Of a stretch of 64,000 nucleotides of DNA, positions 28,552 through 48,572 are shown piece by piece. Position numbers and translations under genes: made by a program. The stretch comes from Nymphaea colorata (lineage: Eukaryota; Streptophyta; Magnoliopsida; Nymphaeales; Nymphaeaceae): the NCBI RefSeq assembly GCF_008831285.2, contig NC_045138.2:40539115-40603114 (forward strand), given 5' to 3'. Numbering within the stretch: position 1 is the stretch's first letter; each line of letters starts with the position of its first letter. The notes beneath the pieces are model-generated. The model was given only the letters and a program-made list of their open reading frames with translations, did not search any database and was not told the origin of the DNA.

Positions 28552-28561
28552 GGATATAAAA
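28552..28561 (+). promoter_or_regulatory. TATA-like box upstream of the first MIRNA-like hairpin
   Basis: ATATAAAAAG lies about 160 bases before the hairpin at 28713. That spacing fits a plant MIRNA primary transcript starting near 28585. No independent evidence of transcription can be read from the sequence. Confidence 0.35.
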
Positions 28562-28712
28562 AGGAGAAGACCTGGAAGCAATAGCAGGAAGCTTATATTG
28601 GCAGCTCCGGCTGCCATTGCCCGTCTGGATGCAGGAGCTTCCTCCTTCCATGGTTACGGAAGGAAGGCATGAAAAGGAGAAGGAAGAAGGAAAAAGAAAC
28701 GCGATTGTGACT

Positions 28713-28850
28713 CATGACATGATTGCTCGGCTGAGTTTGTTCAGTTGGTGTTGTGGTCCGGGCACCAAAGTGGGTCTCTGATCGACGAGCTCCTCTGATG
28801 CATGGGCCTCAACACCAACTAAACAGACTTAGCTGGTCCATCATGTGATG
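28713..28850 (+). ncRNA. MIRNA-like precursor hairpin, copy 1 (family not recognised)
   Basis: The 5' arm (28713-28755) folds on the 3' arm (28808-28850). Of 43 stem positions I count 34 Watson-Crick pairs, 4 G:U pairs and 5 mismatches. The 24-position core from 28730 to 28753 has one mismatch and two G:U pairs. The loop is about 52 bases. Size, bulge pattern and near-perfect central duplex fit plant miRNA precursors. The 5'-arm core AGTTTGTTCAGTTGGTGT (28734-28751) is identical in a second locus at 37076-37093. I do not recognise either arm as a conserved miRNA family. Transcription from the plus strand is favoured by the upstream TATA-like box. A small MITE-type foldback is the alternative. 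Confidence 0.55.
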
Positions 28851-28861
28851 CGTCGCGGCGT

Positions 28862-31800
28862 CCTCCTTCCTCCCTCCTTTCCTTTCATCTTCAGCAGCCA
28901 TGCAGGAATGGACCCTGAGCGATCTTCTTGGATAGAATGATACCTTTTCTTTTTCTTTTGGTCTGCTGCCATCATCTTAGAAATGTTTAGCTATCTAAAG
29001 GCAAAGGAGGGAGAGACCAGGAAGCTTTTGGCAGTGCGTATGGCGGTACCTGATCTTCCTAGATTGAAGATCTGTGCCTCCGATAGTCGTCTGATTCAAA
29101 TTAATTAGTTATGTCCTTTTGATTTCCTGAACCATCTCATGTAATGTGGGGAATGATCCCCAGGAAATACATTTTCTGTAATGGAAGGCGGAATTATAAA
29201 TTAGAAGTGGGTATCCACTTAGTTTGATCTTATTGTGCTTGTTCCAATTTTTCTTTGCTCCAGTTGCACTTGCTTATTCGTGTCGCTCATATATAAATCT
29301 GCAAAATATTGAGATTAAATCGACATTAAGAGGCCAAGGCATTGATGGCCTGGACCTAAAAGGAAGGTGATCAGACTCCCTCACTATGGCAGGTCGATCG
29401 ACGTGCAACTCTTATGTCTAAAAATGTTTTTCGGAACATGATTTCACTCAAAGCCCCAGGAACAGGAATGAAGAACTCTTGTTTGGAATTGTTTGGGCCG
29501 TCCGCAGGCAGTATGCTCTCTTAGTTTTGCAAGCAGGCTTCTAACCTTTGATAAATTACAGAGGCTTGGGATTCTTGCTAATAGATTACATGGGCTTGGG
29601 ATGCTGGCTAATAGATGCAGAGTCTTGCAAGGATGTAATGTAACTATGCGGTCAAGACCTGGAACTCATTGCAGGAGATTTAAATCCCACAGGCTGCCTT
29701 GTACGAAAGTTAAAGGGGGATGATAGAACTATTCATTTTCAATGATTAAGCTATTCATTGTAAGAAAAGATAACTGAAGACAAATTACTTAACAAAAACA
29801 CAAAAACAATTGAATGTTGTCGCCGACCCTCCCTCCCTTCTCCCCCCACTCCTTCCCCCAACACCACCCGCCCGTCGCGCCTCTCTCTCTATTAACATGG
29901 TCTTATTATGAACGGCGTGCAGTGGGAAGACTAACCAAGGGGCCCAAAGAATATGCTTTGAGAAAAAGATCCTTTTTTTCCTAGTAAATTGGGAGGACAT
30001 CAGTTTTAAACTCTTACAGGCATCATACCCTTGGATTTAAGATCCGATACCAATTGAGATAATTGAGAATATCGTATTTAAGGTAAGACCTCCCTCTGAT
30101 CCAACCTCAAATTTGAGGTTTTGACCATATACCCAGGGTCTCAAACTATCTTTTCTAGTGGTAAAATTCGGTAGTTGTTTACACTGTGGGTTCCACGCAA
30201 AGATATCTGATAAAAGAAACCTTAAGTCAGCCTCGTATCAGAGATCTAAGGCTATCAAACACACATTAGCGACATAATCGCTTCAAAGTACCAGGTCATC
30301 CCTTAATCCCAGCGTACGATCCTATACAATCCAATTGCACAAGGAGAGGCCACTTATGAGAACACAACATGAAAGCCTTCATTTTCTTTGCCACTTGCCT
30401 TTCACCATGACATTTCAAACACTTTGTGCCAGTCTGTCCTTGTAGAAAAAGATTTGACATATCAACACGTTTTAACGTTTCAAGAGAAATTAACCAAACA
30501 TAATAGAATTGAAGAATAGTGAAGTAAATAATTGAAGAAGAGTGGAGTAAAGATTTAGGTATCATTGAGTATTGTAAATACAGCAATATAAACGCAATCT
30601 TCCAGGTCACAACCGAGTTTTACAAAACTTGACTATAGTTCCCAGTGGACCTCGCATGCCAGGCATAGTGTCCTTTGTTCCAATTTCTTCTTCCGCATGT
30701 AAAATGACAAGTTCCAAACTTCAAGCCCCTCGCATGGTTGAGATGTTCATAGCTCCTATGTGATATTCAGATGGTAGTATTTAGAGGCCAAACTTGCATT
30801 TTGGCCGTGTGAAAAATGTGAAATTCCCTGGCGTTTTCTTTAGCATGCACACTCTAATTGCCTCTGAGAAATTCCTCTTAAAGAATCCAAATTATTCATC
30901 ATCAACTTCTTTCCAGGAGACCAGTTGCTTCACCATTGAGAACAAACGAGACCAACTTGCTTTCAAGCTTCAAAACAGATTCCAGCAACGAGGGCAGAGG
31001 GACAGAGTTTGCTGATCATTCTCTTGGGCAGCATGCATGATTAGGTGCATATTATAAAGCATTCAACGGAGTTCGGAATGTGTCAGTTCCTCAGAAAACG
31101 CACTTTGCACTTGGGGCCTTGATCTTCTCTGGTGTTTAAGAAGAAAAGCCACCTCCAATGGCTATAGCACATGGATAGTCAAGACTGGACATGGTTCCTA
31201 TGGAGAAGGGCCCAGCGAACAGGAAGAACCATCCATATAGCTGAGAAAATGCAAGTATCAGAATGCATCTCGCATGCAGACTGATGAAAAATCAGATGAA
31301 GCTTTCATGACAACAGAAAGAATTAGTAGTCATCATAGCCAAGAAAATAAGTTACTTCTTACTCATCAAGTCCTTCATTGTGGAACTGCACCACATTCTA
31401 AGTGCAACACACGCCTCAGGTCTTAAAAACCATAGACCACGAAGTGGAACCACTTAACCTCCTGGGTAGATATAGGAAAACAGGAGTAAAGACAGGAAAG
31501 ATGGGATGCTTATTTGACTTGCACTTGACCATATTACTGCAGAAAGGATGGTACCTGCAGCATGCAACAAATTTATAACATGGTAAGGGAGGGCATGAGA
31601 GGAGTAATCTGAACCTTCAATCTTTGCCAAGGGTATGAAAGTACCTATCACTATATAGCGTGTCCTTTAGCTGCGATGCAAAGTTTTCAGTGCCAAGCCC
31701 GCGAGCGCAGGGCCTTGTAGATGCCAAACAAAGAAAAACACCCTAGGAAAGGAAGCGGATGGATGCTAAAGAGAATTGCGCAAAACAATTCAGCAATTTC

Positions 31801-32722: not shown

Positions 32723-34879
32723 TTAGCTCCCCAACAACTTGGATTTTGGACCAAAAAACTTCAGCCCAGAATAAACAAGGTCCATGGTAATCTTTTTTAG
32801 ATGTTCATTTAATAACTCGTTGTACATTATCAAATCTGCATCAGTAATTGTCTTCTTTTTCTCCATAAAAGCAAACACCTTTCTTGTTTCTTCGGCAGTT
32901 CCATGCTTGCAGAGTCCATGTATAATGGCACAATATATAATATCTCCTGTTGGAATATCCAGTTGCATCATCTCATCTAACACCTCTATCACCTTGTCTG
33001 ACTTACCCGACTTACAAGCATGGAGTATAGTAAGTGTATACTTGAAAACCATCGGTCCACTGTTTACACTCCCCAAACAATCTTGAACTAGAGATAGAGC
33101 GGCCATTATCTCGCCACTCCTACAAAGTCCTTTAACAAGAGAACAATATGAAGCAACAGTAGGCACCCAAGACATCGCCTTGATCTTATTATAATATGAA
33201 CATGCATCTAATATTTCACCAGTATCAACCAAGCAATCAATTACCTTGCTATATGTCAAAGAATTTGGTTCAAAACATGAATTCTTCATTTCCTCAAAGA
33301 GAGACAATGCCATCGGTACCTTCCCAATTTTGTGAAGCCCACTTATAAGAACATTGTATATGGAAGTGCTGCAATAGTGTCTTCCTTTTAATTCGTTGAA
33401 TGTTTCCAATGCTTTCAATACTCTCTCATCCTTGTTCACCATGAAAGAGAAGAAATCAAGCAATACATCATCAGCACTTAATCCCAGCGTAGATATCTGC
33501 TTGAGCAAACTGCAAATGTTATCAAACATTTCTCTGTCTGCATATGAAACAATCAATGGCCTAACTGTTATAGAGGTAGGAACAAGTCCTTCTTGAACCA
33601 GCATTTGTAAAACGTTACTTGCTTTATCCAATTCACCTTCACTGCAGATTCCATCTATCAAGGAATCATAAATGAGCAAGTCAGCTCTATATCCCATTTT
33701 GTTCATCTCCTTATATAGGCTACAAGCACAGCTTACCCTACCAACACTCACAAAAGAGGTGATCAAGCTTCCATAAACTAAACGATCGACCAACAGCCTC
33801 TTCTGTTTCATCCGTTCAAATAAACGATAAGCTTTCTCCACATCTCCCACCTTACAAATCCCACAAATCATCGTAGTATAAGCCATAACATCAGGCTCAA
33901 CACCATCCTTGACCATCTCTTCCCAAACCCTCCATGATCCGTCCAAATTTTCTGCACGAACCAACGTCCTTATCATTGCCGTATACGCGAAAACATCAGG
34001 CTTGCACAGATTTCTCCGCATTCGATCCAGTATCTCAAAAGCTTGATCGATTCTACCAGCTTTACAGAGGCCTTTGATGAGAATCATGAATGTAATGCTT
34101 TCTTCTACATATCCATCATTCTTAAAATCATCATAAACACCCAACGCCAAGTCTAGATGTTGGGATTTAACAAGAGCGTCTAGAATCCTATTATAAATGA
34201 AAACACTAGGCTTGCACCCAAATTTCTTCATTTTTTGATACACAAAATGAACTCTAAGGCCTCTACCGGCATCAGAGTGCATTCTGAGCAGAATCTCGAA
34301 TTGCTTCTCAGTAGGTTCTCTGCCGTACGATTTCATGAGCTCGACGACCTGATCGGCCGCCCGATACCAGTTCGATCGATTCAAGCAATAAGTCAAGGCA
34401 TTGAAAGTAGAGAAATTGTGGTGGAACCCCTTTTGCTTACCTGCCCAGCTGAAGAACTTGGAGCAAATCCGGGGGTCGTCGTACCCTTTGAGCACCTCGG
34501 CCACCACGTTCTGGTTCACCCGCCGGAGCTTGCGCAAGTCGGCTATGACCTCGGCGCCCCAATTCTTGTGCTGGCGGAAGCTGTCCACGACGTACCGGGC
34601 GATCGGCGACAACCGGCGGCCAGAGGCGAGGAATTTCTCAGATGGGTTGTTCCAAGTCGGGGCCTGTTGGACTGAATCCGGGTCCCAGAGACGGAAATCG
34701 AAAGCGGATGGTTGAGAAGCGTTACGTCCGCCGACCTTCTTGCCTTTGGCAGTGGTGGGTGGGAGGGAGACAGTCTTCCGGTTGGTGAAGAAGCCGCCGA
34801 AGACGACGGGGCGGTTCTGAGAAGGAACCCTGTGGCCATAGAATACGTTGTACTTCTTAGGGATGGCAGAGGGCGGCAT
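32723..34879 (-). CDS. P-class pentatricopeptide repeat protein
   Basis: A single uninterrupted frame of 718 residues, intronless as is usual for PPR genes. From about residue 190 to 690 it consists of tandem 35-residue PPR units, for example blocks opening VFIYNRILDALVKSQHLDLA, SITFMILIKGLCKAGRIDQA and SLTYSKVIDCLVDTGEILDA. No E, DYW or SMR domain follows, so it is P-class. PPR proteins bind organellar RNA in a sequence-specific way; the target is unknown. The N-terminus is basic and poor in acidic residues (YNVFYGHRVPSQNRPVVFGG), consistent with an organelle transit peptide. The whole protein resembles Arabidopsis At4g20740-type PPR proteins from memory. The chosen ATG gives the longest frame and the family's YGHR..SQNRP start. 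A splice donor follows the stop by 25 bases. Confidence 0.95.
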   Translation of the reverse strand: MPPSAIPKKYNVFYGHRVPSQNRPVVFGGFFTNRKTVSLPPTTAKGKKVGGRNASQPSAFDFRLWDPDSVQQAPTWNNPSEKFLASGRRLSPIARYVVDSFRQHKNWGAEVIADLRKLRRVNQNVVAEVLKGYDDPRICSKFFSWAGKQKGFHHNFSTFNALTYCLNRSNWYRAADQVVELMKSYGREPTEKQFEILLRMHSDAGRGLRVHFVYQKMKKFGCKPSVFIYNRILDALVKSQHLDLALGVYDDFKNDGYVEESITFMILIKGLCKAGRIDQAFEILDRMRRNLCKPDVFAYTAMIRTLVRAENLDGSWRVWEEMVKDGVEPDVMAYTTMICGICKVGDVEKAYRLFERMKQKRLLVDRLVYGSLITSFVSVGRVSCACSLYKEMNKMGYRADLLIYDSLIDGICSEGELDKASNVLQMLVQEGLVPTSITVRPLIVSYADREMFDNICSLLKQISTLGLSADDVLLDFFSFMVNKDERVLKALETFNELKGRHYCSTSIYNVLISGLHKIGKVPMALSLFEEMKNSCFEPNSLTYSKVIDCLVDTGEILDACSYYNKIKAMSWVPTVASYCSLVKGLCRSGEIMAALSLVQDCLGSVNSGPMVFKYTLTILHACKSGKSDKVIEVLDEMMQLDIPTGDIIYCAIIHGLCKHGTAEETRKVFAFMEKKKTITDADLIMYNELLNEHLKKITMDLVYSGLKFFGPKSKLLGS

Positions 34880-37048
34880 CTTCGAATCTGCAGGTTCTCT
34901 TCGCTCCTCTCCTTCCTACCTTCCCGCTACATCTGGTTCGATATTCGGAGTCTGGAAGCGTCAAGCAGAAACTCTTACTCTCAATTCTACACCGGCGCAA
35001 CCATGTCTGCCGAAGTAAGGGGCGGCGCGTTTGAGAAGTGGAGTGACGAAGCGCGAAGCGACAGCGTAGAGCAGATTTTCCAAAATAGACCTACAAATTT
35101 GAAGATAACATAATCGCTCGTAAAATTTAAGAAATATTATTGAAAACCTTTCAAAAAATTCGACAAGTAACCATGAACAAAAAGCACATGGCAATGTCAT
35201 CCTCATTTCCCAAATGTCATTGCTACACTTTGAAGGGAGACGTTTTTTTCGGGTATTTTTTTTAGAAAGGTTGTTTTTCCCATGAAAATGTTGAGAAAAT
35301 TAAAAAAACCTACAAATTATTGACAAATGGTTACATTTATGTTTAAAAAGAAGAGAAAAAGGAAAATTGGGCAAATGTGAAAAATGTGATAAATTTATCT
35401 TCCGTTCTTGCAAAGAAAATTGCTGTTTAGCTTTTTTTTTTCTGTTTTTATCTTTTTTTAGTTAATATTACGATATTTTAAAAGTATAATCAAGCTCACT
35501 AAATGTCCTGGTTCTTGAAAGTTTTTTTGAATGTAAAGGATCCTTGTCCTAGTGGCACTTAACCAGCTTTATTTAAATTAATAAATTTGACCCAAATACT
35601 TTCAAGCCTATTGATTTGCATGTCCACTATTTTATATTAGCTCCTCTAATAACTGTCAACATTTTTAACGACATTTAAATTCATCAGTCATAATAGTTAA
35701 GTAATTCTTTGGGGGAGTAGACGTAATATATCTTTAGAAGTTCTTTCGTGACAAAATGGAACGTTATAATTGACAGCTGTATCAACAATTTCAGAAATGG
35801 CAGAGCCTTCTGAAATTATGATGCAAGAGTTGGGACTCAAAACGAAAAATTTCCCTAACAAAGGCCGGCCAAGGCAAAAGGCCATAAACCGAGCTCCTGC
35901 TGAAAGGTGTTTTGGCGGGAGAGGCGGGCAAGGCTCGGCCTCCCCGCCGATTCCTTCTCCATTGCTTCTTCATGAATTCGTGCGCTTGCTTCTTGTTTCT
36001 AAATTCTTGTTGATTGCCGCCATTATCACCACCACCACCACCACTATCACCGTGTACTCGGCCTGTCCCTCTCTTTTCAAGCCTTTTTTGTGGTGCTCGG
36101 ATCTAGCAAGCAACGATTGCTCTGAACGCATGGCTCCTCCGAGTGCACCAAAATTTCAGCCCTCCTGGTAAGTGGAAGCTCTCGTTTTCTAAAGTTTCCG
36201 TTTCGTTCGTAACTAATCCCGAGGTTCTTAACTTCTTGCTACCTCTCCGTTTTCTTTCATTCTTTGGTTTTCCTTTTTTTTTTGTGTCTTTATTTTTCTC
36301 CAGGGAACTTGTGGTTTCCTCATTTGGTATTTCTTCGAATTGAATACGAGTAGCTAACATGATCTGCCTTGTACATTGATCTAAGATCTTCACCTTCATT
36401 TTGAGCTGCTCTATTTAAGACCAGCAGATGATGGCTATCTTAGACAATTTTCACATTGGTGATTCATTTGGTGGTTGGATCTGTTATTATTTTATGGAAG
36501 GATTTTCGTTCTTTCAATGTCTCCTTTATCTTCTCTTTTTGATTTTCTGGCTATCTCTTCTTTATTTCATCTTATCTGGATTCAAGAGGGTTTTTTCAAC
36601 AGCCTGATTTGTTCGCACAGGGTTTATATACAGGATGTAAAAATCTCCAATTTTTTGTAAATAAAGGTTTGGGGGCCTAACCCCCTAGCAGTCGTTCTCC
36701 GGTAGTGCAAGGGAAAAGAGAAAAACCTTGATCAAGATTAGGGCTAATCAAAGCATGCTTGCTTGCAAGAAAAGGAGAGGGACAGTGAGAAAAGTGATAA
36801 AACACAAAAGAGGGAGGGAGGGGGTGGGAAAGAGGGGAGAATCAAGATCTCCGGGGATCTTGCAGAGTTCGAATGTTGCTAAGGAATGAGGCCGACTGAT
36901 AGTATATGTATGCAGGAACCTAGATTGAAAGAAAGATTGGGAAGCTGGTAGTGCCCCTAAGCATGTACAAACTACGCAGTTAAGCTATGTTGGAGATGCA
37001 TTCCATGGTTACTGGAGCAAGGCATCAAGACAAGAAAATGAAAAGTGA
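34880..37048. other. Divergent flank of the PPR gene, non-coding
   Basis: This holds the PPR promoter and AT-rich sequence. A GC-richer patch at about 35870-36171 ends in an excellent splice donor (CTCCTG|GTAAGT, near 36168). It could be the first exon of a transcript running into the hairpin at 37049. The 133-residue frame across that patch (from 35770) has no recognisable domain and is not called a gene. Confidence 0.45.
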
Positions 37049-37511
37049 GGCAATGCATGACATGGCTGCTCAGTAAGTTTGTTCAGTTGGTGTCATTGGC
37101 CAAGCATAAAGTATGTTGCAATTTATGTATCATGATTTTGCTTGAAACTGTGTGGCTTGTGTGATTTTAATTCAAACACCTCATCCCATTCCCGGGGCTA
37201 CTGAAATATGAGGACTAGAAAACGTAAAAACTTATTAGACCCACCTTTTAGTGGTTTTACTGTATCAGGTCATCTGACTCACAGGTTGTCACATTAAAGT
37301 TGCTTTTTCTAATGAAGTCTTAAAGAGGTAGAAAAATGTAGTTTTGATGTGGCAACCGGCAACATACGTATTGTTGATCTAATCTGGTCGAATGATTTAC
37401 AGACGACGTGGTTCCGCAGCAGTTATTGTGCTTCTTGGTTTTTTATATACCAAAGCAGCGTCTCAATGGCAACTAGACAAACTTAGCTGAACCACAATGT
37501 GATGCATTGCC
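37049..37511 (+). ncRNA. MIRNA-like hairpin, copy 2 (paralogue of 28713-28850)
   Basis: The 5' arm (37049-37099) pairs with the 3' arm (37462-37511) around a large loop of about 360 bases. The base of the stem, GGCAATGCAT with ATGCATTGCC, is perfect, as is the TAAGTTTGT/ACAAACTTA core. The outer and middle parts carry more bulges than copy 1. The 18-base 5'-arm core matches copy 1 exactly. The 3'-arm segment AACT(A/G)(A/G)ACA(A/G)ACTTAGCTG is nearly the same. Flanking words (CCATGGTTAC before, TGTGATGC after) also match. The long loop and extra mismatches suggest either a younger miRNA precursor or a decaying duplicate. Confidence 0.45.
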
Positions 37512-38205
37512 GTGTACGTCTTCTTTTATGCTATCGTGAGTAACCATGTCAGAATCTGGTCTTTTCTCTTCTTAAACATGGTTTACCTGTTCATTCTTTT
37601 AAGAATGCTAAGCCATGGCCAACAACTTCATTTGGATGAGTAACGGCCTAATGTCCTACATTTTGCAGAACATGCACAACTAGTTTGCAGTGTTGCTTGT
37701 AACTATTGTCTGCCACTATGCGAATGCGATGCAGAGAAAGCAAGAAGACTTTTTGAGGGGAAGCAGCGCCAGTTATTCCCCAAACTTGAAGTCTTCAACA
37801 TCTGTTGGCACTATTTATCAATATGGACTTGCCCAAAGAAATTTTTTCCCCATGCTGGAATCTCGTGTAGGCAAGAACGTTTCACACTTTTTTGTGCAAA
37901 ACTTGGTTAACAGAGGAATTTGGAAGATATTAGATAAGACCTTGGATGAAGCTTCAATTCTGCCAATTCTTTTTTGCTTTTCCTTGTGTTGCCGTAGGGC
38001 TTCGAAGCTGCAACTCTTTTCGATTTCATTTCTCCTCCCACAGCCCATTAATCAAGTTCGCTGGCCTTCGAAGGGTTCTCATTTTTCTTTGTAAAGCAAG
38101 CTCGGCAAATCTGGCTGCAAATTAATTGTTGAAAAATGCTTATTATTTTCTTAATTGTTCATACTTTTCTTCACTTGAAATACTCGAGTTGGAAGTCCTC
38201 AAGTG

Positions 38206-46126: not shown

Positions 46127-46305
46127 AAAAAGTGGTTTAAGCTGAAGTCTTCCATTCATCCCGGATGCACGGATGTGTGTGTGTACATCGTCTCACACAC
46201 ACATCCGATGCATCCGGGATGAATGGAAGAAAACCGCTCAAGCATATCTAAGGGATTCAAGGATCTGTCGTTCCGGGTTCGGAAGATCAGCTTAAACCAC
46301 TTTTT
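46127..46305. repeat. Nested inverted repeat (foldback)
   Basis: The outer arms are a perfect 19-bp inverted pair, 46127-46145 and 46287-46305 (AAAAAGTGGTTTAAGCTGA and its complement). Inside them, about 40-bp arms (46148-46187 and 46191-46230) pair almost perfectly around a very short loop. A 56-base stretch on the right side only (46231-46286) breaks the symmetry, and GGAAGA occurs at both its edges. It could be a foldback transposon with an insertion, or a hairpin RNA gene. It starts about 500 bases after the UBP24 stop. Confidence 0.8.
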
Positions 46306-48404: not shown

Positions 48405-48572
48405 AGGGGCCGTTTGGCAACAGTAATAATATTCTGTTATTATTTCATGTACCTACCCCAAATATTAGAGCAGATTCATAGAATATTGTAACATAGTGTT
48501 CCATGAACCTGCCCTAATAATTTAGGGTAGATACCTGAAAGAGTTACATAATGTCGTTGTTGCCAAATGACC
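48405..48572. mobile_element. MITE copy, GTTTGGCAA family
   Basis: The left end, AGGGGCCGTTTGGCAACAG, is inverted at the right end, GTTGCCAAATGACC. Inside are ATTCATAGAATATTGTAAC and TTCCATGAACCTGCCC, words shared with the copies at 54435 and 55713. The end sequence and size suggest a hAT-like non-autonomous element. A clean 8-bp target duplication was not found. Confidence 0.65.

Follow-up and report, generated by a model that had tools for sequence, protein, structure and literature searches.

Two related foldbacks on the forward strand of Nymphaea colorata contig NC_045138.2, copy A (~28646-28905) and copy B (~37001-37548), are probably a tandemly duplicated pair of MIRNA genes. They probably represent a candidate MIRNA family, perhaps a small one, which we did not find described in Rfam or in the main texts of the papers that we searched. 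Four parts of this model are observed: the foldback itself, its paralogous partner, arms that are conserved between the two, and pairing that is for the most part kept. Coordinates refer to the window, by which we mean the entire 64,000 nucleotides analysed (contig positions 40,539,115 to 40,603,114). The window has the appearance of nuclear plant DNA, and open frames elsewhere in it match ubiquitin hydrolase, hexokinase, and a PAM2 motif.

Copy A had been picked out in a sequence-only reading as a stem of 43 positions with five mismatches and a 52-base loop, whose central 24 positions carry one mismatch and two G:U pairs. Recomputation gave the same geometry: the arms (28713-28755 and 28808-28850) align over 43 ungapped positions with five mismatches and four G:U pairs, and the best 24 positions are 28730-28753. 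The foldback is bigger than that reading stated. Copy A matches itself across 28673-28885 (E = 1e-16), and the MFE structure of 28640-28910 has its closing pair near 28643/28907. The reading had proposed folding 28690-28870, and with RNAfold the + strand of this segment reached -90.7 kcal/mol. By comparison, 200 dinucleotide shuffles averaged -53.8 (sd 4.1), and none of them folded as well (z = -9.0). The minus strand gave -78.6 kcal/mol (z = -6.8).

To place copy A within the window, we used two scans. Among 6384 segments of 160 nt from both strands, 28701-28860 on the + strand was the energy minimum; by GC-corrected residual, copy A ranked 11th, behind eight AT-microsatellite segments and two segments at 46141-46300. 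We also scanned for ungapped foldbacks of 43 positions, allowing up to 5 mismatches and a loop of 20-150. This returned two clusters, copy A and an AT microsatellite, and none in five block-shuffled windows. (A long TA microsatellite at 712-828 swamps naive hairpin scans.) As for the TATA-like box that had been placed 160 bases upstream, TATAAAAA is present and begins at 28555, which is 158 bases before 28713. Because TATAWAWR is common in the window (1.8 per kb per strand), the box alone says little.

The second, diverged hairpin lies on the same strand, about 8.4 kb from copy A, and a comparison of copy A with the remainder of the window showed that it shares an upstream block and both arms. 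In the 5' arm, 18 bases are identical (28734-28751 = 37076-37093). The 3' arm of copy A matches 37470-37489, and the block directly upstream matches as well (28646-28670 to 37001-37025). Gapped searches aligned 28646-28751 with 37001-37093 on the same strand (71.7%, E = 5e-8) and, collinear with that block, 28808-28869 with 37462-37523 (74.2%, E = 3e-5). When profiles of both copies were run against the 64-kb window, no third copy passed the inclusion threshold; the 5' profile gave five weaker, chance-like matches below it. Between the two copies, on the minus strand, is a 730-amino-acid open frame with PPR repeats (32723-34915).

When 36980-37580 is folded, the same arms pair around a loop of ~360 nt. 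The energy of 37001-37552 is -170.4 kcal/mol (z = -5.0), which none of 100 shuffles matched. For the minus strand, z is -3.3, and one shuffle in 100 did as well. A 74-nt hairpin within the loop contributes to the values for both strands. The stem of copy B is poorly paired at 37064-37069/37491-37496, and its lowest-energy duplex has a 3-nt bulge. The 74-nt hairpin (37284-37357) has the ends GGTTGTCACAT and ATGTGGCAACC, and is perhaps a small inserted element that lengthened the loop.

Table 1. Features of the two foldbacks, in window coordinates; mature products are predictions.
Feature	Position	Strand	Remarks
TATA-like box upstream of copy A	28555..28562	+	weak evidence alone
Copy A, whole foldback including outer stem	28646..28905	+	from MFE structure of 28640-28910; self-match 28673-28885
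Copy A, 5'-edge block	28646..28672	+	23/27 identical to 37001-37027; 0/1000 shuffles as good, tested as 28646-28708
Copy A, lower stem, 5' side	28706..28731	+	G.G mismatch at 28716/28847
Copy A, predicted 5p miRNA	28732..28752	+	inferred register; sequence UGAGUUUGUUCAGUUGGUGUU
Copy A, loop of 43-position stem	28756..28807	+	52 bases, partly paired internally
Copy A, predicted 3p/star	28813..28833	+	2-nt overhang assumed
Copy A, lower stem, 3' side	28832..28857	+	
Copy B, paralogous long-loop foldback	37001..37548	+	
Copy B, predicted 5p	37074..37094	+	sequence UAAGUUUGUUCAGUUGGUGUC
Copy B, long loop (approximate limits)	37100..37460	+	contains the 74-nt hairpin 37284-37357
Copy B, predicted 3p/star	37467..37487	+	

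Most of the stem pairs of copy A still pair in copy B. We considered the 44 pairs between 28700 and 28752 for which both sides align to copy B; pairs that meet a gap on one side or both, or that lie beyond this range, were not counted. Pairing is retained at 39 of these 44. If the same number and kinds of changes are placed randomly on the same sides, then 33.3 pairs are kept on average (sd 2.1), and 39 or more are kept in 98 of 20,000 simulations. All four of the pairs that changed on both sides still pair, which by itself is borderline (1136 of 20,000 simulations reach four). The changes are about equally divided between the two sides of the stem (11 on the 5' side and 12 on the 3' side). 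Beyond the counted range, several of the alignable upper-stem pairs (28753-28763) are broken in copy B, which also lacks equivalents for many pairs in the purine-rich linker. The kept pairing supports selection on the RNA, short of proof, because gene conversion from arm to arm could mimic it. We also compared G:U pairs with A.C mismatches on the + strand, and the ratio is 6 to 1 in copy A and 3 to 4 in copy B. Since G:U does not exceed A.C in copy B, a strand preference is unsupported in that copy by this measure.

At the level of sequence, 80 of the 101 columns of the 5' homologous block are identical, and 4369 of 20,000 permutations of the block contain a stretch of at least 18 identical columns in a row. 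The 18-base run is thus unexceptional within its block, and we do not claim for the duplex a stronger conservation than that of the rest of the block. The copies align across the foldback block and not across the flanks. By local alignment, the outside flanks had no significant homology (219 and 183 of 1000 shuffles were as good upstream and 779 of 1000 downstream), and neither did the 3' outer part, 28855-28910 (477 of 1000). Extensions anchored at the block edges fared weakly better, with 12, 8, and 7 of 200 shuffles doing as well. The anchored upstream extension gets as far as the TATA regions, where copy A has TATAAAAA at 28555 and copy B has only TATATGTA at 36903. These anchored extensions are suggestive, but not decisive, of gene duplication rather than two element insertions.

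We predict that the mature 5p begins at 28732. Of the 86 21-nt registers on both arms, this is the sole one that has a 5' U and at least 19/21 identity between the copies. It also matches a published eight-position GC signature (PMC7102948) at six of eight positions in both copies, although 13% of the window's 21-mers equal or beat this score. The two copies share a G.G mismatch, at 28716/28847 in copy A and 37059/37501 in copy B, and the predicted 5p starts 16 nt (A) or 15 nt (B) above it. In base-to-loop cutting, the guide is described as a bulge that lies 15-17 bp beneath the duplex (PMC8688358). We noticed the agreement with the signature and with this spacing after the register had been chosen, and a single mismatch makes a weak ruler when the stem goes on below it.

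The duplexes can be compared with the published rules for plant miRNAs: at most five mismatches, no asymmetric bulge above 3 nt, a length of 20-24 nt, and a 2-nt overhang (PMC12594335). The same paper lists, for read data, at least 10 reads on the miRNA/miRNA* pair and a precision of at least 75%. With the star placed by assuming a 2-nt overhang, the copy A duplex has one mismatch and two G:U pairs and falls within the structural rules. The copy B duplex has two mismatches in the aligned register (the overhang is not counted), whereas its MFE register has a 3-nt bulge; it too can be fitted to the structural rules. For precursors above 300 nt, miRScore gives a warning rather than a failure (PMC12594335); copy A, at ~260 nt, is below this length and copy B, at ~550 nt, is above it. 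Plant MIRNA precursors can exceed 500 nt (PMC8688358), and copy B resembles these long precursors in its total length and its loop of ~360 nt, but it is past the length at which miRScore warns.

If these are MIRNA genes, then Pol II would produce a primary transcript, and DCL1 would cut the foldback from base to loop, ~16 nt above the G.G mismatch in the predicted register. The released duplex would give up its 5p strand (28732-28752, or 37074-37094 in the sister) to AGO1, which is loaded through the 5' U, and the loaded strand may then guide the cleavage of complementary mRNAs. Within the window, a complementarity scan with four candidate 21-mers (penalty of at most 5) returned only copies A and B themselves. 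The foldbacks share several features with plant MIRNAs that DCL1 processes from base to loop: an imperfect foldback with a well-paired segment of duplex size, a mismatch ~16 nt below the duplex, a predicted 5' U, and tandem paralogues. They differ in that the stem runs well below the supposed ruler mismatch and that no family matched. Tandem duplication is a common route by which MIRNA families grow (PMC3327684), and conserved plant miRNAs often lie within duplicated segments (PMC3738527; PMC3327684).

The sequence-only reading judged that the arms do not resemble conserved families, and our searches agree. No Rfam 15 family reached its gathering score anywhere in the window, and even with lax Rfam thresholds, no plant family matched either stem. 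For copy A, the lax search gave eight weak matches, the best being mir-627 at 21.9 bits versus 86. The models that span both arms are mir-627 and mir-138, which we take to be animal families, and they match mainly the hairpin shape. The seven weak matches for copy B are all within the loop. We also searched for 28 sub-sequences of the arms, most of them in both RNA and DNA letters, in the main texts of papers, and judging by titles and the starts of abstracts, none of the hits was a plant-miRNA paper. We looked for the 18-mer core in two collections that are not of plant genomes. It had no matches among viral contigs and ten among genome contigs, all ten in bacterial records, which is near the ~7 that we estimate by chance; the longer arm pattern was absent from all ten of those loci. 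No tRNA was found in the window (using a finder with the bacterial code), so we rejected a tRNA origin.

The serious rival to the miRNA-like reading is that the foldbacks are two copies of an old MITE or other foldback transposon. Their hairpins would then be relics of inverted repeats that are inert or kept silent by 24-nt siRNAs, and they would either not be miRNA genes at all or have been recruited as such only later. We consider this unlikely. Significant homology between the copies is restricted to the foldback, and a mobile element would produce the same limits; complementary ends such as CATGGTTAC and GTAACCATG lie at the edges of the copy B foldback; and the window has other element-like foldbacks (46127-46305 and 48406-48572). 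In rice, MITE-related miRNAs make up a large part of the miRNA genes (PMC3237417), and our pair resembles MITE-derived miRNA genes in being an inverted repeat with homology mostly inside the foldback. But it differs from them in having no convincing target duplication, just two copies in the window, and pairing that appears to be constrained. By eye, neither copy has a target-site duplication at the foldback ends. A 13-base CT-rich near-repeat around copy A (12 of 13 identical; 28637-28649 and 28858-28870) could be read as one, but it is of low complexity and we saw no counterpart in copy B. The earlier reading would have given way to a MITE if there were many copies with target duplications; within the 64-kb window we found two copies and no third above the inclusion threshold, and the near-repeat of copy A is the only candidate duplication. 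Also, more pairing is retained than random changes allow (39 of 44 versus 33.3), and there are weak signs that homology fades outward from the foldback. What adds to the miRNA-like reading is the paralogous hairpin, with its conserved arms and largely kept pairing.

The two other foldbacks are worth describing. At 46127-46305 there is a nested, near-perfect foldback with an outer 19-bp perfect stem. It reaches about -85 kcal/mol per 160 nt whichever strand is folded, and this symmetry hints at a MITE or else at an inverted repeat of recent origin. The foldback at 48406-48572 has the ends GGGGCCGTTTGGCAAC and GTTGTTGCCAAATGACC, which resemble MITE ends.

It is quite improbable that the locus is instead a transcribed long inverted repeat that feeds DCL2, DCL3, or DCL4 and yields heterogeneous hairpin siRNAs rather than one miRNA. 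The foldbacks are long enough to invite this explanation (~260 and ~550 nt), but the stem is imperfect, with 5 of its 43 positions mismatched, and its best-paired stretch is duplex-sized, as in miRNA precursors. It seems more improbable still that the hairpin arose by chance or is another sort of structured RNA. The fold of copy B is the weaker one (z = -5.0, with the loop hairpin contributing), but copy A has a z of -9.0, five shuffled windows contained no such foldback, and the paralogue keeps the pairing.

Upstream of both hairpins are collinear ATGs that open frames at 28629-28781 (50 amino acids) and 36996-37076 (26 amino acids). The two frames begin alike, with MQELPPSMVTEGRH and MHSMVTGARH, and might possibly encode a miRNA-encoded peptide. 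Of the first eight aligned codons from MVT, four differ, and three of these four differences change the amino acid. As this gives no sign of a conserved peptide, we rejected a coding origin.

Returning to the duplicated MIRNA pair, a more specific account has, in our estimate, somewhat less than an even chance of being right: an old, undescribed family in which the tandem genes retain almost no alignable flanks and yet both still make a 5p with the same core. The two 5p forms would differ at positions 2 and 21, and the loops of their precursors are very different. In our judgement, undescribed plant MIRNA families are common finds. If the foldbacks are processed, then they would add a small-RNA regulator in this lineage, and the two would lend themselves naturally to asking how long a loop can become (from 52 to ~360 nt) before processing suffers. 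The pair also illustrates that evidence of conservation can come from a paralogue in the same window, without another genome.
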